Of a DNA stretch of 64,000 nt, positions 57,077-64,000 are shown in pieces; position 1 is the stretch's first letter; each line of letters begins with the position of its first letter. The stretch lies in NCBI GenBank assembly GCA_020850615.1, contig JADZEI010000066.1, forward strand, positions 65,943 to 129,942, read 5' to 3'. The notes under the pieces were generated by a model. It did not search any database. It saw only the letters and a list, made by a program, of their open reading frames with translations, and was not told the DNA's origin. The position numbers and the translations under genes were made by a program. This DNA is from Dehalococcoidia bacterium (GTDB taxonomy: Bacteria; Chloroflexota; Dehalococcoidia; Tepidiformales; Tepidiformaceae).

Positions 57077-59260
57077 ATGAGTTGGCTCGAACGATGGGCC
57101 CGTTTCTCCCACCGCAACCGCGGCAAGGTCATCCTCGGCTGGGTGCTGGTCCTGGCCGCGCTCGTCGGGCTCGCACAGGCCTTCGGCGGCGAATACGAGA
57201 ACAGCGTCTCCCTCCCTGGTTCGGAAACCCAGGAGGGCATGGACATCCTCCAGGCGAGCTTCCCTGCCCGCGCGGGCGACTCGGCCGACCTGGTCTTCCA
57301 GTCCGAAGCGGGCCTCGCCGACGCGAGCATCCGCCAGCGCATCGAGCAGCTCCTCGCCGATGTCGCGACCATCCCCGGCGTGGTCGGCGTGGAATCGCCC
57401 TACGAGACGCCGGGCGCGATCAACCAGGACGGCACCATCGGCCGCGCCGCAGTCCGCTGGGAATCGCTCTCGATGGACACCCCGAAGGGCGACATCGAGT
57501 CCATGCTCGAAAAGATCGACGCGGCGGAGGGCGAGGGGCTGCGGATCGAAGCCGGCGGCGACATCGTGGCCCAGGCGGAGTTCCCCGAGTTCGGCTCCGA
57601 AGGGCTCGGCCTGATCGCGGCCGTGATCATCCTCTTTATAGCGTTCGGTTCCGTGGTCGCGATGGGCCTGCCGATTGGCGCGGCCCTCTTCGGGCTCGGC
57701 GCGGGCACCATGCTCGTCGCGCTCGCCACCCGCTTCATGACGTTCCCGGACTGGACCGCGCAGTTCATGGCGATGATCGGCATCGGCGTCGGCATCGACT
57801 ACAGCCTGCTCGTCGTCACGCGCTTCCGGGAGGGCCTCCATTCCGGCCGCAGCGTCGAGGACTCGGTCGCGCTCGCGGTGACCACCTCCGGGCGGGCGGT
57901 GATGTTCGCGGGCGTGGTCGTCGCGATCGCGTTCTTCGGGCTCTACGCGATGGGCCTGCCGTTCATCGCCGCGGTGGGCACGGGGGGCGCGATCGTGGTC
58001 GCCTGCGCGGTCATCGTCGCGATCACGCTCATGCCGGCGTTCCTCTCGCTCGTCGGCCACCGCGTGGACAGCTGGCGCGTGCCCTTCCTCCATTCGACCG
58101 AGGGCGTGGACGAGAAGAGCGGCTGGTACCGCTTTTCGAGCGCCATCCAGAAGCAGCCGCTGCCCTGGTTCGCGGTCGGCGTGGTGAGCCTGCTGGTGCT
58201 CGCTTCGCCCGTGCTCGACATGACGCTCGGGTTCACGGACGCGGGCAACAACCCGCCGGAGCGCCGCACCCGCCAGGCCTACGACCTCCTCGCCGAGGCG
58301 TTCGGGCCCGGGTTCAACGGGCCGCTCATCGTCGTGACCGAGCTCAACGGCGCCGGCGAGGCCGAGCTCGCCCGCGTCTCCCAGGCCATCGCCGCCGACC
58401 CCAACGTCGCCGCGGTGACGCCGCCGGCCGTCAGCCCCGCGGGCGACGCGGCGGTGTGGACGCTGTTCGCGAAGACGAAGCCGCAGGACGAGGCCACCGG
58501 CGCGCTGGTCCACCGCCTGCGCGACGACATCCTCCCTTCGGCGACGGCGGGGACGGCGCTGGACCCGAAGGTGACCGGCAGCAACGCCGGCAGCATCGAC
58601 GCCGGCGACCGCATCGCCGAGCGGATGCCGCTGCTCTTCGGCGCGGTCATCAGCCTGAGCTTCCTGCTGTTGATGATGGTGTTCCGGTCGGTCCTGGTGG
58701 CGCTCAAGGCCGCGATCATGAACCTTCTCTCGATCGGCGCGGCCTATGGCGTGGTCGTGGCGGTGTTCCAGTGGGGCTGGTTCGGCGGGCTGCTCGGCGT
58801 CGATAAGGGGCCGGTCGAAACCTTCCTGCCGATGATGTTCTTCGCGATCCTCTTCGGCCTGTCGATGGACTACGAGGTCTTCCTCATCAGCCGCATCCGG
58901 GAGGAGTACATCCGCTCGGGGAACAACGCCCTGGCCGTGCGCAACGGGCTCGCGGCGACGGCGCGCGTCATCACGGCGGCGGCCGCGATCATGGTCGCGG
59001 TGTTCCTCGCCTTTGTGCTGGGCGAAGACCGCATCGTGAAGGAGCTCGGGCTCGGCATGGCGACGGCCATCTTCGTCGACGCCACGGTCGTCCGGCTCAT
59101 CCTCGTCCCGGCGACGATGGAGCTGCTCGGCGACGCGAACTGGTGGCTGCCGAAGTGGCTGGACCGCCTCCTCCCGCACGTGAACCTGGAGGGCGTCGAA
59201 GCCCACGAAGTGCACCCGGACGCGACAGGCGGCGCGACGGCGCCGGCGGGCGGCAAGTAG
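57077..59260 (+). CDS. MMPL family RND transporter
   Basis: 727 residues in the MmpL-like two-bundle layout: one N-terminal helix, an extracytoplasmic domain (about 35-180), five helices with GIGVGIDYSLLVVTRFREGL, a second extracytoplasmic domain (about 370-510) and five more helices with GLSMDYEVFLISRIREEY. The GxxxDY motifs in helices 4 and 10 carry the proton-relay Asp. It exports lipids or hydrophobic drugs; the substrate is unknown. ATG 57077 has GGAGG upstream. Probably controlled by the divergent TetR. Confidence 0.95.
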   Translation: MSWLERWARFSHRNRGKVILGWVLVLAALVGLAQAFGGEYENSVSLPGSETQEGMDILQASFPARAGDSADLVFQSEAGLADASIRQRIEQLLADVATIPGVVGVESPYETPGAINQDGTIGRAAVRWESLSMDTPKGDIESMLEKIDAAEGEGLRIEAGGDIVAQAEFPEFGSEGLGLIAAVIILFIAFGSVVAMGLPIGAALFGLGAGTMLVALATRFMTFPDWTAQFMAMIGIGVGIDYSLLVVTRFREGLHSGRSVEDSVALAVTTSGRAVMFAGVVVAIAFFGLYAMGLPFIAAVGTGGAIVVACAVIVAITLMPAFLSLVGHRVDSWRVPFLHSTEGVDEKSGWYRFSSAIQKQPLPWFAVGVVSLLVLASPVLDMTLGFTDAGNNPPERRTRQAYDLLAEAFGPGFNGPLIVVTELNGAGEAELARVSQAIAADPNVAAVTPPAVSPAGDAAVWTLFAKTKPQDEATGALVHRLRDDILPSATAGTALDPKVTGSNAGSIDAGDRIAERMPLLFGAVISLSFLLLMMVFRSVLVALKAAIMNLLSIGAAYGVVVAVFQWGWFGGLLGVDKGPVETFLPMMFFAILFGLSMDYEVFLISRIREEYIRSGNNALAVRNGLAATARVITAAAAIMVAVFLAFVLGEDRIVKELGLGMATAIFVDATVVRLILVPATMELLGDANWWLPKWLDRLLPHVNLEGVEAHEVHPDATGGATAPAGGK

Positions 59261-59860
59261 CGCGAACCCTCACCCCCGTCCCCTCTCCCGTGCGCGGGAG
59301 AGGGGTGCCCGGGATGGCGAGATGGTGGCGCAAAGGTGTAGCCCGCGGCCCTTGTGGCCGCTAGCGTCTAAGCCCAACGGATGCCCCACCGCCAGGCACC
59401 GCGCCACCCCGGCGACGCGGGCACCGCGCAGCGCGCACCCTCACCCCCGTCCCCTCTGCTCTGAAAATGGCCCCGTGGTTCCGGGCATCGGGATCGTTGT
59501 TCGTCGACTCTCCCTGCCGAAAGTCGATTTTCATCCGCCATCCTGGCCCTTTGCCATCGTGTCTCCCGTGCGCGGGAGAGGGGTGCCCGGGATGGCGTGA
59601 TGGTGGCGCGAAGGTGTAGCCCGCGGCCCTTGTGGCCGCTAGCGTCTAAGCCCAACGGACGCCCACCGCCAGGCACGGCCCCACCCCGGCGCGCACCCTC
59701 ACCCCCATCCCCTCTCCCGTGCGCGGGAGAGGGGTGCCCGGGATGGCGAGATGGCGGCGCAAAAGTGTAGCCCGCGGCCCTTGTGGCCGCTAGCGTCTAA
59801 GCCCAACGGATGCCCCGCCGCCAGGCACCGCGCCACCCCGGCGACGCGGCCACCGCGCAG
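59261..59860 (+). repeat. three tandem copies of a hairpin-plus-REP-D unit
   Basis: Each unit has accctcacccc-type sequence, the hairpin ctctcccgtgcgcgggagag, gtgcccgggatggcg, then REP-D (gcggcccttgtggccgc, then tagcgtctaagcccaacgg) and a tail gccaggc. Units begin at about 59270, 59445 and 59695. The middle one is split within its hairpin by a 117-bp insert (59458-59574). No gene. Confidence 0.8.
59458..59574. mobile_element. 117-bp insert in a repeat unit (possible miniature element)
   Basis: The copies on either side read cccctctcccgtg. Here 'cccctct' is separated from 'tctcccgtg' by about 114 bp of less GC-rich sequence, so TCT is duplicated at both ends. That is what a 3-bp target-site duplication would look like. 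No clear inverted ends and no coding sequence are seen. Confidence 0.45.
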
Positions 59861-60214
59861 CGCGCACCGCACGGCGCCATCGGTGGCGCGACCAATAGGG
59901 AGCGCTCGGCCGCGAACCCGTACCATCGCCCCGCGCAGCCGCGACACCCGCCGCACGCGGCCGGGCGGGGCGCTGCGCTCCCGCCCTCGGGTGGGGGCTG
60001 CCGCGGGGCATGGGTTGGGCTGACGCCAGGGCCCACGAGGGGCCCGGGCTACACCCCGGCCACGTGCGCCCGTTGCTGGGAGCCAACAGCCACGAGCCGC
60101 CCCGCCCCCCTTTGTCCAAAAAACATCTCCGGGGCGTTAACTGCGGCGCACCTTCCCACGTTGTTTACCGGTAGCAAGCCGTACGTTGCCCGCCGCAAGG
60201 TGGGCATTGAGGTG
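59861..60214. repeat. REP-E and REP-C, then unique less GC-rich sequence
   Basis: REP-E at about 59875-59912 (one mismatch to the copies around the second RAYT) and an inverted REP-C at about 60010-60055. From 60120 the sequence is less GC-rich and not repeated elsewhere in the window. It includes a GNRA-loop hairpin (TGCCCGCC-gcaa-GGTGGGCA, about 60187-60206). No gene. Confidence 0.6.
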
Positions 60215-60243
60215 TTGACCCTTGGTATATGCGTCGGTACCTT
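60215..60243 (+). promoter_or_regulatory. possible promoter of the surface-protein gene
   Basis: TTGACC (60215-60220) and TACCTT (60238-60243) are spaced 17 bp apart in a less GC-rich stretch. If used, it gives the downstream gene a leader of about 680 nt. A nearer promoter is not excluded. Confidence 0.4.
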
Positions 60244-60366
60244 TCGACGGTCTTTACCGGTCGGCCCGCGATGGCCGGGGGCTCAACGTCCCTGGTGCAT
60301 TGGGAGTACGTGTGACCAACGACGGCTCGAGCTTCGCCACTTCGGTGGCAGCTGATTCAAAAGCGC

Positions 60367-60422
60367 CCGCTCAACCGGGTTCCCTTCCTTGCTGGATGGG
60401 AACCCGCTCTTATGTTGAGCGG
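60367..60422. other. long two-part stem-loop
   Basis: The outer stem CCGCTCAAC / GTTGAGCGG (9 bp perfect) encloses an inner stem GGGTTCCC / GGGAACCC (8 bp perfect) with loop ttccttgctggat. The inner stem is offset by an 8-nt bulge. No T tract follows. It is a structured RNA or DNA site rather than an ordinary terminator. Confidence 0.6.
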
Positions 60423-60497
60423 ATTCGCCTCATGCATATCCCAGCGAAAGGAGGGCGTGCCATCTCGCGCTGAGTTTCGAGGCGCCTTTGGGCTGCC

Positions 60498-60660
60498 GGC
60501 TTTCGGCCATCGGCCGTCGGCTACTGGCTTTCAACCGTGATTCACGGGTGGGGAGCTGGACCAAGGTGGGGCAGCGCAATCGGGCTGGAGGCGAATGGCA
60601 ACGGATGGAGGTCACCCCGCATAGGTTGGCCGATAGCCGATAGCCGATAGCCGAAAGCCA
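60498..60660. repeat. inverted pair of heptamer arrays in the surface-protein leader
   Basis: Left array 60498-60533 (GGCTTTC GGCCATC GGCCGTC GGCTACT GGCTTTC) and right array 60624-60660, inverted (GATAGCC three times, then GAAAGCC). About 90 bp lie between. Confidence 0.85.
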
Positions 60661-60826
60661 CCGGGACGCGACGCGAGAGGAAAGACCCAAACCTGATTCC
60701 GACATGAGGGAAGGCCCGGACCCGCCCGGAACCACGCGCCGGGGGACGGCGGGACGACGAGCGGGCGACCTCACCAGCAACGGCTTCTTCGCTGTGGCCC
60801 TGCCAGGCCCGCGGAGATATGCAGTT

Positions 60827-60898
60827 CGCCCGCAGTCCGGGCGAGTCCGGATGAAAGACCCCCGCCAAAACAACATGGCGGGCCCCGCGAAAGCGGGG
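60827..60898 (+). promoter_or_regulatory. three stem-loops in the 5' leader of the surface-protein gene
   Basis: Stem 1: CGCCCG-cagtc-CGGGCG (60827-60843). Stem 2: CCCGCC with a 10-nt A-rich loop and GGCGGG (60861-60882). Stem 3: CCCCGC-GAAA-GCGGGG (60883-60898), stacked directly on stem 2. A short A-rich stretch and then the ribosome site follow. Possible roles are mRNA stabilisation, attenuation or a riboswitch; no known riboswitch consensus is recognised. Confidence 0.6.
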
Positions 60899-60930
60899 AA
60901 AACAGTCATATGACTGGAGAGGTACAAGAC

Positions 60931-63900
60931 TTGAGTATTCAGACTGTCCAGGCGAAGAAGCGCAGCGGCGGCCTCACGCTGCTGGTTGCGCTTCTCGTGA
61001 TGGCGGCGGGAGCGATGTACACGTTCCGCGATGCAAGCGCGAACGTCACTGCAGCGGACTTCGACCTCACCGGTGGCTGTGCTGCTACCGCACAAGTCGG
61101 AGATACATGCTCCTACACCGTCGCCATCTCGGCCCTCACCCAGCCTTCCGTTGGTGACATCCAGATCGTTGTCAATCTTGATGACGACCTGGGCAACATC
61201 ACCAACATCAACAGCACCGGCCTGCCGAGCAACGCTGCCTGCGTCGTTTCGGGCGCTGGCAACGACGTCATCACTTGTACGCTCGATGGGCCGATCCCGG
61301 CCGCTGCCACCGGCACCTTGACGTTCGACGCGGTTGTCAAGGGTCCCGGCGACATTACAGCCGGCCAGGGCGTATGCACGGCAAATGACCTCGGCAGTGC
61401 CCAGGGGCCGCAGCCTTGCGACAACGCTCTCCCCGCCGTGACGGTGGAGGGGCCTAACTTCAGCACGGTCCTGAAGGACACGGTTGACCAGTTCCAGACG
61501 GTTCCGCTCGACCCGGTCTATCTGACCGAGCGTTTCGTCTACCAGGTCACCATCTTCAATGGCGACGCTGCTAACGGCGCTGAGGATCTCAGCTTCAGCG
61601 ACACGCTCCCGGCGTCCGTCGATGCCGTCAGCGCCACCGCCACGATTAGCGGCGGAGCTGCCGCGACGGGCAATGCCGCGAGCTGCGGCATCGCCTCCGA
61701 TGTGGTGACCTGCACCGGTCTCGACATTGCGGCCAACACGGTCGCCGTCGACGGTACGGCGCCGTTCACCGCTTCGGCCAACCAAATCGTGATCTCGATC
61801 CCCGTTCAGATGCGCGGCGATGCCACCTTCGGTGGCAGCGGTACGGTCTCGTCGACGGACATCACGAATACCGGCACGTTCACCTGCAATAGCGACGGTG
61901 CGCTGAGCGGCGCGCTTCTCGTGTGCGACGATGGAAGCCCGTCGCTCACGCAGACGTACGTCGCCACCGACAGCAACCTGACCCCGCAGCGCGTCCTTCT
62001 CAACGACGACAACACCGCCGTTGAGGACACCGCATCGTGCTCGATCAGCACGAGCAACTTCGCTGGCGGTCGTGTCGTCGGTAACGTCACGTCGCTGACC
62101 GATACCGACCTCACCGACTGGTCTATCTCGCCTGCCACGTACACCGCGGCTAGCGTGTCCGGCGCGGCTGGGGCGGAGCAGACCCTGGCCTTCACTCCGT
62201 CCGAGGACGGCACGTACACCATCACGTTCTTCTGGAACGCCCAGAACAACAGCGCTGGTGGTGCGGTTGTCGAAGCGACGGCGACCTGCGACGTCGCAGC
62301 GGCTGCGGCCGTCAACGACGACACCGAGGACCTGTTCCACATCGACCCGTTCGGCGACCCGTCGACGCTCATCGATGTTGAGAACAACGTCATCGGCTAC
62401 CTTCACGAAGTCTGCGCTGCCAACATGCCGGTTGACAGCCTGTTCCCGACGTTCGTCGACCAGGTCCATGGCCAGGGCGAGGAGCAGGGGTACAACTTCA
62501 AGATCCAGGCGACCTCTGGCACGCCGAACATCATCGGCCCCGTCATCTCCACGCTCGTGGACTGCGATGGCGACGGCTTCGCCGATGACTCGACGATCAC
62601 CTGGTACTCGACGCAGACCGGCGAACAGTCGATCGAAGTCGTGAACGACAGCGGCGAAGTCATCATGGACAGCTCCGGGATGACCGCGCCGTTCACCGAG
62701 CCGCTGATCAAGGAATGGAACACCCTCCTTCCGACGACGATCACGGCCGTCGACATTGAAGACGGCAGCGATGCCGGCGGCAGTGTCGCGGAAGAGCTCG
62801 CGGCGGCCACCAACTACGACGGCCAGACCGTCAGCCTTGGCGCCGTCCTCAACCCGGCCACGGGCATCTATGAAGTCGACTCCAAGGTCTTCTACGAGAA
62901 CGTCCCTGGCTCGCACATCACGAACACGGGCTCGACCCTTGTCACGATTGCGACGGGTGCAACGGTCACCTTCACGGTCGACTCGGACTGCGGCTACGTC
63001 GCGCTCCTGGACGACACGGAATACGCCGACGCCCTCACCGCCTACAACGACGGCACCGTCGACGATACCTATGTCGAAGGCGACTACGTCCGGACGATCC
63101 GCGTGACGTCCGTCGGCGAGTCGATCTCGTTCGCGGTCACGTCCTACGACGCTGACATGAACAGCGACGAGTGGGACTGCTCGATCCTCGACATCATCGA
63201 GGTCGACATCCAGGCTGCGTACCCGGCTTCGGTGCTCGGTTCGGTCGTCCCGACCAACCCGGCGCTGGAGACGATCCGGTTCCAGCTGACGCATCGCCCG
63301 GCCGCCAAGCAGGTCCTCCTCGCGTGGGCCGGCCAGCGCATCATCCTCGAGCACGACTGGCGTCTCGTCCCGGGTGACCTCCCGGACCTGACCCCGGCGT
63401 ATGGCAACTTCGACCTGGACAACTGCCCGTTCCCGGTGGGCACGGACATCACCTACGTCAAGGGCAGCGGCCCCGGCAACTTCCTGACCGGCCTCGATGT
63501 TGACATCAACGGCTCGGACCAGGCCTGGGTTGAGCTTGCCTTCAGCCATGTCGACCAGATCGGCGACGTGCCTGGCTACCCGCAGAACGCCTGCATCACC
63601 CGCGTCCTGTACGAGTCGGAAGACCCGGGCCAGGTCGACATCGAAGCCTTCGTGGATGAAACGAACACCGTCGATTACTCCAAGGTCGCGTTCGTCATCT
63701 ACTACATGAAGTTCAACACCGTTGACCTCAGCCTCGTGACCCAGGTCTCGAAGCCGACGCACAACGGCTCGGCCGCCGGCTACCGCGATTACGCGCCCGG
63801 CAACCCGTGGGACGCCACTGCCGACGATGCCGATGGCACCGCCGACTGGAACGTTTCGCGCGACATCCTCGTCCGCGGTCGCGTGAGCGGCTGGTTCGTG

Positions 63901-64000
63901 AACGAGAACCCCTCGGGCCGCGCCGCCGACACGAGCGACGAATTCAACGTCCTCCCGGCGAACCGCTGGATCATGCCGATCGACTGGCCGATGCTGGCCG
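60931..64000 (+). CDS. large secreted surface (S-layer-like) protein, 3' end beyond the window
   Basis: At least 1,023 residues, with no stop before the right edge. A basic N-terminus and signal helix (KKRSGGLTLLVALLVMAAGA) precede a mature part rich in Asp, Thr, Val and Gly. It starts with two DUF11-like beta domains (CSYTVAISALTQPSVGDIQI; TERFVYQVTIFNGDAANGAE). Paired Cys recur, and a calcium-loop-like DCDGDGFADD lies near residue 545. TTG 60931 has GGAGAGG eight bases upstream; ATG 60910 in frame is the alternative. Codons at the start use more T in third position than neighbouring genes. Long leader and size fit an abundant S-layer or cell-wall protein, but no SLH domain or sorting signal is visible in this part. 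Confidence 0.8.
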   Translation, partial: MSIQTVQAKKRSGGLTLLVALLVMAAGAMYTFRDASANVTAADFDLTGGCAATAQVGDTCSYTVAISALTQPSVGDIQIVVNLDDDLGNITNINSTGLPSNAACVVSGAGNDVITCTLDGPIPAAATGTLTFDAVVKGPGDITAGQGVCTANDLGSAQGPQPCDNALPAVTVEGPNFSTVLKDTVDQFQTVPLDPVYLTERFVYQVTIFNGDAANGAEDLSFSDTLPASVDAVSATATISGGAAATGNAASCGIASDVVTCTGLDIAANTVAVDGTAPFTASANQIVISIPVQMRGDATFGGSGTVSSTDITNTGTFTCNSDGALSGALLVCDDGSPSLTQTYVATDSNLTPQRVLLNDDNTAVEDTASCSISTSNFAGGRVVGNVTSLTDTDLTDWSISPATYTAASVSGAAGAEQTLAFTPSEDGTYTITFFWNAQNNSAGGAVVEATATCDVAAAAAVNDDTEDLFHIDPFGDPSTLIDVENNVIGYLHEVCAANMPVDSLFPTFVDQVHGQGEEQGYNFKIQATSGTPNIIGPVISTLVDCDGDGFADDSTITWYSTQTGEQSIEVVNDSGEVIMDSSGMTAPFTEPLIKEWNTLLPTTITAVDIEDGSDAGGSVAEELAAATNYDGQTVSLGAVLNPATGIYEVDSKVFYENVPGSHITNTGSTLVTIATGATVTFTVDSDCGYVALLDDTEYADALTAYNDGTVDDTYVEGDYVRTIRVTSVGESISFAVTSYDADMNSDEWDCSILDIIEVDIQAAYPASVLGSVVPTNPALETIRFQLTHRPAAKQVLLAWAGQRIILEHDWRLVPGDLPDLTPAYGNFDLDNCPFPVGTDITYVKGSGPGNFLTGLDVDINGSDQAWVELAFSHVDQIGDVPGYPQNACITRVLYESEDPGQVDIEAFVDETNTVDYSKVAFVIYYMKFNTVDLSLVTQVSKPTHNGSAAGYRDYAPGNPWDATADDADGTADWNVSRDILVRGRVSGWFVNENPSGRAADTSDEFNVLPANRWIMPIDWPMLA

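Follow-up and report, generated by a model that had tools for sequence, protein, structure and literature searches.

How a single mRNA can live long enough for its product to coat a whole cell with surface protein is known for a few model species only. The right-hand end of the window (the whole 64,000-nucleotide stretch of DNA that was analysed) raises this question for Tepidiformaceae: what does the long leader ahead of a gene for a large exported protein do? Judged from its sequence, the interval 60215–60930 would comprise a promoter and a 5′ leader of about 680 nt belonging to this surface-protein gene. The elements that need to be considered are the following (window positions):

60135–60170, plus strand: boxes CGTTAAC (60135–60141) and ACGTTGTTTACCG (60158–60170), conserved ahead of the promoter in the leader alignment
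60215–60243, plus strand: promoter, TTGACC (60215–60220), 17-nt spacer, TACCTT (60238–60243)
60367–60422, plus strand: module A, a two-part hairpin with a CTCTTAT bulge
60447–60454, plus strand: AAAGGAGG, an invariant start-codon-less Shine-Dalgarno (SD) sequence, STAB-SD-like
60498–60659, no strand given: REP-like inverted repeat (GCCGATAGCCGATA...), inserted in this genome's copy, not conserved
60697–60851, plus strand: module B, the core RNA, a three-way junction
60716–60721/60845–60850, plus strand: helix P1 of module B
60723–60730/60836–60843, plus strand: helix P1b of module B
60737–60740/60748–60751, plus strand: helix P2 of module B
60761–60767/60827–60833, plus strand: helix P3 of module B
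60706–60709/60769–60772, plus strand: GAGG/CCTC, probable pseudoknot of module B, outside the covariance models
60861–60916, plus strand: three spacer hairpins
60912–60933, plus strand: ribosome-binding site (RBS) GACTGGAGAGGTA and TTG start, a conserved RBS-start pattern
60931–64000, continuing past the window to about 65952, plus strand: gene of a 1673-residue exported protein, probably an S-layer protein

Promoter, inserted repeats and the surface-protein gene

A promoter-like pair had been proposed by an earlier reading made from the sequence alone (the sequence-only reading), and it is found in place, with identical spacing in relatives wherever the site is recognised; the −10 element there is TACCTT or, in some, TAAGGT or TAGGCT. 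The aligned leaders follow one order, namely TTGACC, the 17-nt spacer, the −10, the modules, GACTGGAGAGGTA and TTG, and the transcript is predicted from the promoter to start near 60250. A simple sigma-70 scan missed this promoter, as its −10 departs strongly from the consensus, and the promoter call therefore rests on conservation. The upstream boxes, CGTTAAC and CGTTnTTACC, which lie about 50–80 nt before the −35 and are recognisable in genus g13 too, are possibly a direct-repeat operator for some regulator.

When the leader was used in a DNA search, matches were found in many genomes of the family, in blocks at about 60337–60474 and 60664–60860 together with the promoter and the RBS, while the repeat-rich stretch between the two blocks had no syntenic match in relatives. 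Further copies of the REP-like repeat inserted there are present elsewhere in the genome, and the repeat is absent from relatives' leaders. The description of the leader as long, structured and partly repeat-built is therefore to be divided: the structure is conserved, whereas the repeat part is a genome-specific insertion outside the conserved RNA. REP-like repeats were accordingly ruled out as functional parts of the leader. The emphasis that had been placed on the repeats and on the stems before the RBS concerned elements that do exist but are the least conserved parts of the leader, and that reading did not name the two elements that matter most, AAAGGAGG and the three-way junction. Other repeat-like inserts occupy the corresponding leader position in two further copies (G011 and L026). 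At 59260–59868, in the interval that separates an RND/MmpL-like transporter gene from the leader, there are also three copies of a 180-nt intergenic repeat, the later ones matching the first at 71% and 97%, with the palindrome CCCTCTCCCGTGCGCGGGAGAGGG.

The strong ribosome site (GGAGAGG, 60916–60922) and the TTG start at 60931, both suggested previously, are borne out by the conserved N-terminus and by the string GACTGGAGAGGTA-n-TTGAGTA, of which 14 genomes of the family each have exactly one occurrence. Genus g13 has a different RBS with the same TTG start, and the most divergent copy, in G012, apparently uses ATG instead. The encoded protein begins with a signal-like segment. The impression that its codons differ from those of the neighbouring genes proved to be real: the gene shares with ribosomal genes a depletion of GGG, CGG and GTG, GGT, GCT, GTT and CGT are enriched, and the gene scores above all but one of the 15 window genes on a highly-expressed-gene index, which should be read bearing in mind its small reference set (S12, S7 and EF-G).

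The domain claims fared less well. For DUF11, model TIGR01451 scored 15.8 bits against a 24-bit cut-off and no Pfam family was matched, so that DUF11-like domains were not upheld; a motif resembling a calcium loop is indeed present once (DCDGDGFADD, residue 544), but four homologues lack it. Four downstream proteins showed no SLH domain, and an AlphaFold model of the C-terminal 894 residues (pLDDT 32) was unusable. Tepidiforma cells carry a tetragonal S-layer whose lattice has been imaged (PMC10284905). Taking export, the codon use of highly expressed genes and this documented S-layer together, the 1673-residue protein is likely to be the S-layer protein of Tepidiformaceae, and the leader thereby marks the gene that is likely to encode the S-layer in Tepidiforma. 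An abundant S-layer mRNA leader or a riboswitch had been suspected here; the conserved, structured leader and a probably very abundant surface-protein mRNA stand, while the S-layer identity comes from context.

Homologues in three other genera match at about 40–48% over most of their length, and at about 60–72% in the last 380 residues in those pairs that were aligned there. The g13 protein is quite different, having 606–648 residues of which about 45–75 at the C-terminus are in common with the others, and yet the g13 leader core is 64–67% identical to that of the window, with the key positions invariant. As the protein body differs while the leader core is kept, the RNA has outlasted a replacement of the protein body.

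Two structured modules and an invariant Shine-Dalgarno sequence

The two-part stem-loop that had been noticed at 60367–60422 corresponds to module A, which is conserved and, in an alignment of 10 sequences, displays compensatory changes at 3 pairs: three pair types are seen at each of two positions, and a double change at one further pair. In module B, the P1/P1b/P3 junction was recovered by RNAalifold unaided, and the inverted heptamer pair that had been pointed out, GCGGGCG/CGCCCGC, is helix P3 of this conserved core. A P1 pair changes from C-G to U-A in genus g14, a P3 pair from G-C to A-U in two genera, and the GAGG/CCUC pseudoknot from A-U to G-C, mainly in genus g13; the L026 copy, for its part, breaks the covarying P1 pair. 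The unpaired joining segments of the core contain invariant nucleotides. Both modules, as predicted from these alignments, show compensatory changes, though few of them are independent. The covariation score of the core was reached by no shuffle, while the number of core pairs with double changes did not stand out from the shuffles (125/500), owing to the very high conservation of the sequence, the shuffles being uncorrected for relatedness. Folding energies are lower than random, with an MFE z of −4.4 for the full leader and a mean z of −4.1 for the core against dinucleotide shuffles over 22 homologues.

Some alternative pairings were considered and set aside. For a bistable switch (1:2+3:4 versus 2:3+1:4), constrained folding placed the junction fold lower in all 23 copies, by 2.7 to 13.3 kcal/mol. 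Pairing of CCGCC with GGCGG as P2 was abandoned and the structure revised, as folding places CCGCC in P1b. A long-range GGCGC/GCGCC pairing is indicated by a single double change (in G017) and is not claimed. The three consecutive stem-loops reported ahead of the ribosome site (60861–60882, 60883–60898 and 60903–60916) are all present; counterparts of the first two, differing in sequence, are seen in G022 and G016, and other genera have different stems.

Between the two modules, AAAGGAGG is unchanged in 23 of 23 distinct copies while its flanks vary. It is the perfect complement of the anti-SD sequence CCUCCUUU, as taken from the 16S tails of G013, G032 and G025, and pairs with it at −12.4 kcal/mol as compared with −7.8 for the true RBS, i.e. 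about 4.6 kcal/mol better. No conserved start codon or frame follows it across the 23 copies, and an upstream open reading frame was dropped as a candidate for this reason. Its distance to the predicted transcript start is 27–29 nt in genus g13 and 143–333 nt elsewhere, and about 290–610 nt, with variable inserted repeats, separate it from the start codon. In silico, its accessibility is only slightly above the leader average.

Distribution within the family

Two covariance models of the core RNA (R1 and R2), built from 22 sequences, detected the RNA in 23 of the 38 genomes of Tepidiformaceae, always as a single copy, and wherever this was checked the copy precedes the surface-protein gene. 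Records named Tepidiforma flava and 'Tepidiformaceae bacterium' carry the leader as well. Outside the family, no match was obtained in a class sample (294 genomes) or a Chloroflexota phylum sample (400 genomes), with filters strict enough that divergent copies could be missed. In four genomes without a leader match (G004, G005, G010 and G026) the homologous gene lies at a contig end with its upstream region unassembled, and in some others no full-length homologue of the gene was seen. A full Tepidiformaceae-type leader, with the surface-protein gene and its neighbours, is also found on contig PQAJ01000076 (L026) of a metagenome-assembled genome labelled Holophagae, which is likely mislabelled or misbinned.

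No Rfam covariance model matched the leader at its gathering threshold or with a plausible E-value, nor did Rfam or the literature searched, mostly outside subscription papers, yield an earlier description. Conservation of the stems among homologous genes had been set in advance as one test of the sequence-only reading, and both conservation and compensatory changes were found. By these comparisons of sequence, the leader is established as an undescribed, conserved and structured element, single-copy, family-specific as far as searched, and tied to one surface-protein gene.

It should be noted that the one control leader compared, that of the S12 operon, is likewise conserved across the family, and conservation alone would therefore not carry the case. 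What gives it weight is that base pairs change in a compensatory manner, that the SD lacking a start codon is invariant and that the protein was replaced behind an unchanged RNA. The S12-operon upstream region of the same genome (L126:3184–3914, minus strand) has blocks of 60–180 nt at 80–93% identity across the family, for which no Rfam family or tRNA accounts; it is a poor conservation control and a second leader worth study.

Candidate roles of the leader

The reading that we favour, with a probability of roughly 45%, is that the leader docks ribosomes and stabilises, at the 5′ end, the mRNA of a surface protein made in very large amounts; it is drawn by analogy. In bacteria without RNase E, a strong SD in the leaders of long-lived mRNAs is described as an mRNA stabiliser even if no start codon follows it (PMC3997798), and on the cry3A mRNA of Bacillus thuringiensis a 30S subunit bound at such a STAB-SD blocks RNase J1 (PMC4113751). 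Here, a 30S subunit would dock on AAAGGAGG and, together with the hairpin and the three-way junction, would block the 5′-to-3′ exonuclease RNase J, while the docked subunit and the leader fold might shield sites from RNase Y. With decay blocked, this long message, whose protein would be extremely abundant, would survive, and translation would then be initiated at the downstream GACTGGAGAGGTA/TTG site. RNase J is present in 38 of 38 family genomes and RNase Y exceeds the cut-off in 35 of 38, with RNase E/G over the cut-off in none of the 38; RNase J and RNase Y without recognisable RNase E/G are the setting of the Bacillus STAB-SD.

Three features of a STAB-SD are seen with AAAGGAGG, namely strong 16S complementarity, no start codon or ORF behind it and a host with RNase J. 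As for cry3A (PMC4113751, PMC3997798), the mRNA of a very abundant protein has a start-codon-less SD in its long leader, the host has RNase J but no RNase E, and in g13 the SD is near the predicted 5′ end; the cry3A product is a crystal-forming protein, and here a surface protein, probably of the S-layer, is encoded. Unlike cry3A, the SD of this other phylum is embedded in a conserved leader that also contains a hairpin module and a three-way-junction RNA, and stabilisation is putative. We counted in favour of a stabiliser the single-copy leader, the compensatory changes, the invariance of AAAGGAGG, the RNase set, the codon use and the g13 protein replacement. Against it stands the distance of AAAGGAGG from the predicted start outside g13, which is far for a plain 5′ block, and there processing or module A would therefore have to protect the 5′ end. 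The merely slight gain in predicted accessibility of AAAGGAGG over the leader average counts against it too. Why a simple stabiliser should need so invariant a junction RNA is also not obvious.

A rival reading, which we regard as possible but doubtful, takes the core for a sensor tuning S-layer synthesis, be it the aptamer of a riboswitch or a site to which a protein binds, for instance the surface protein itself. Invariant unpaired joining nucleotides and a probable pseudoknot are typical of ligand-binding RNAs, and a published riboswitch candidate, the SLH motif, lies before S-layer-homology genes of Synergistaceae and Firmicutes (PMC6429828). Like it, the present RNA is structured and upstream of cell-surface layer genes; unlike it, the four proteins examined here have no SLH domain, and for the published motif no Chloroflexota members are reported. 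Moreover, the coding strand of the leader has no intrinsic terminator, no conserved element hides the RBS, no expression platform is visible, the junction is favoured over a bistable fold in 23 of 23 copies, usually by several kcal/mol, and one gene per genome would be controlled. A leader acting mainly as a translation enhancer, with AAAGGAGG as a ribosome standby site feeding the TTG and the fold joining both sites, is improbable in our view. It would suit the arrangement in which the true RBS is preceded by an SD stronger than itself, the near-universal TTG start and the closing of the core by P1, by which AAAGGAGG and the RBS come closer together, but AAAGGAGG is about 290–610 nt away from the start codon, with variable inserted repeats in between. 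Very improbable, finally, is conservation at the DNA level (promoter or operator) or structure arising by chance in intergenic DNA that is GC-rich and full of repeats, the RNA having no function: the promoter and upstream boxes are conserved too, the window copy holds REP-like repeats and the S12 leader is also conserved, but compensatory changes in both modules, non-random folding and the lack of the inserted repeats in relatives' leaders speak for an RNA.

The leader represents an RNA family not described before, and since the lineage has cultured members (Tepidiforma), the proposed stabilisation by ribosome docking is open to test. Should stabilisation be confirmed, the STAB-SD principle would extend to another phylum, paired with an elaborate RNA fold. 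A bolder proposal, somewhat less probable than a sensor as such, is a new class of pseudoknotted regulatory RNA that would sense the envelope state or free surface protein and adjust S-layer synthesis, with a built-in ribosome-docking site. The slpA mRNA leader of Lactobacillus acidophilus (Boot et al. 1996, cited in PMC6482533) is also among the closest known systems; the organism is unrelated, and the text consulted describes no start-codon-less SD or junction RNA there.

Beyond the surface-protein gene, the next gene downstream (L065:5087–5749) encodes a small exported protein that has a membrane segment at its C-terminal end and an RRGR tail, and is followed on the opposite strand by a large sensor histidine kinase; the order is the same in L026, and a similar gene starts after the homologous surface-protein genes. 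The C-terminal domain of the surface protein itself (YGWDAAAQxWLGYFPxxVxVPGANDLxxLxxGxAYWIAI, L065:4830–5050), which has no Pfam match, ends many other large proteins of the family and is possibly a shared cell-surface domain.
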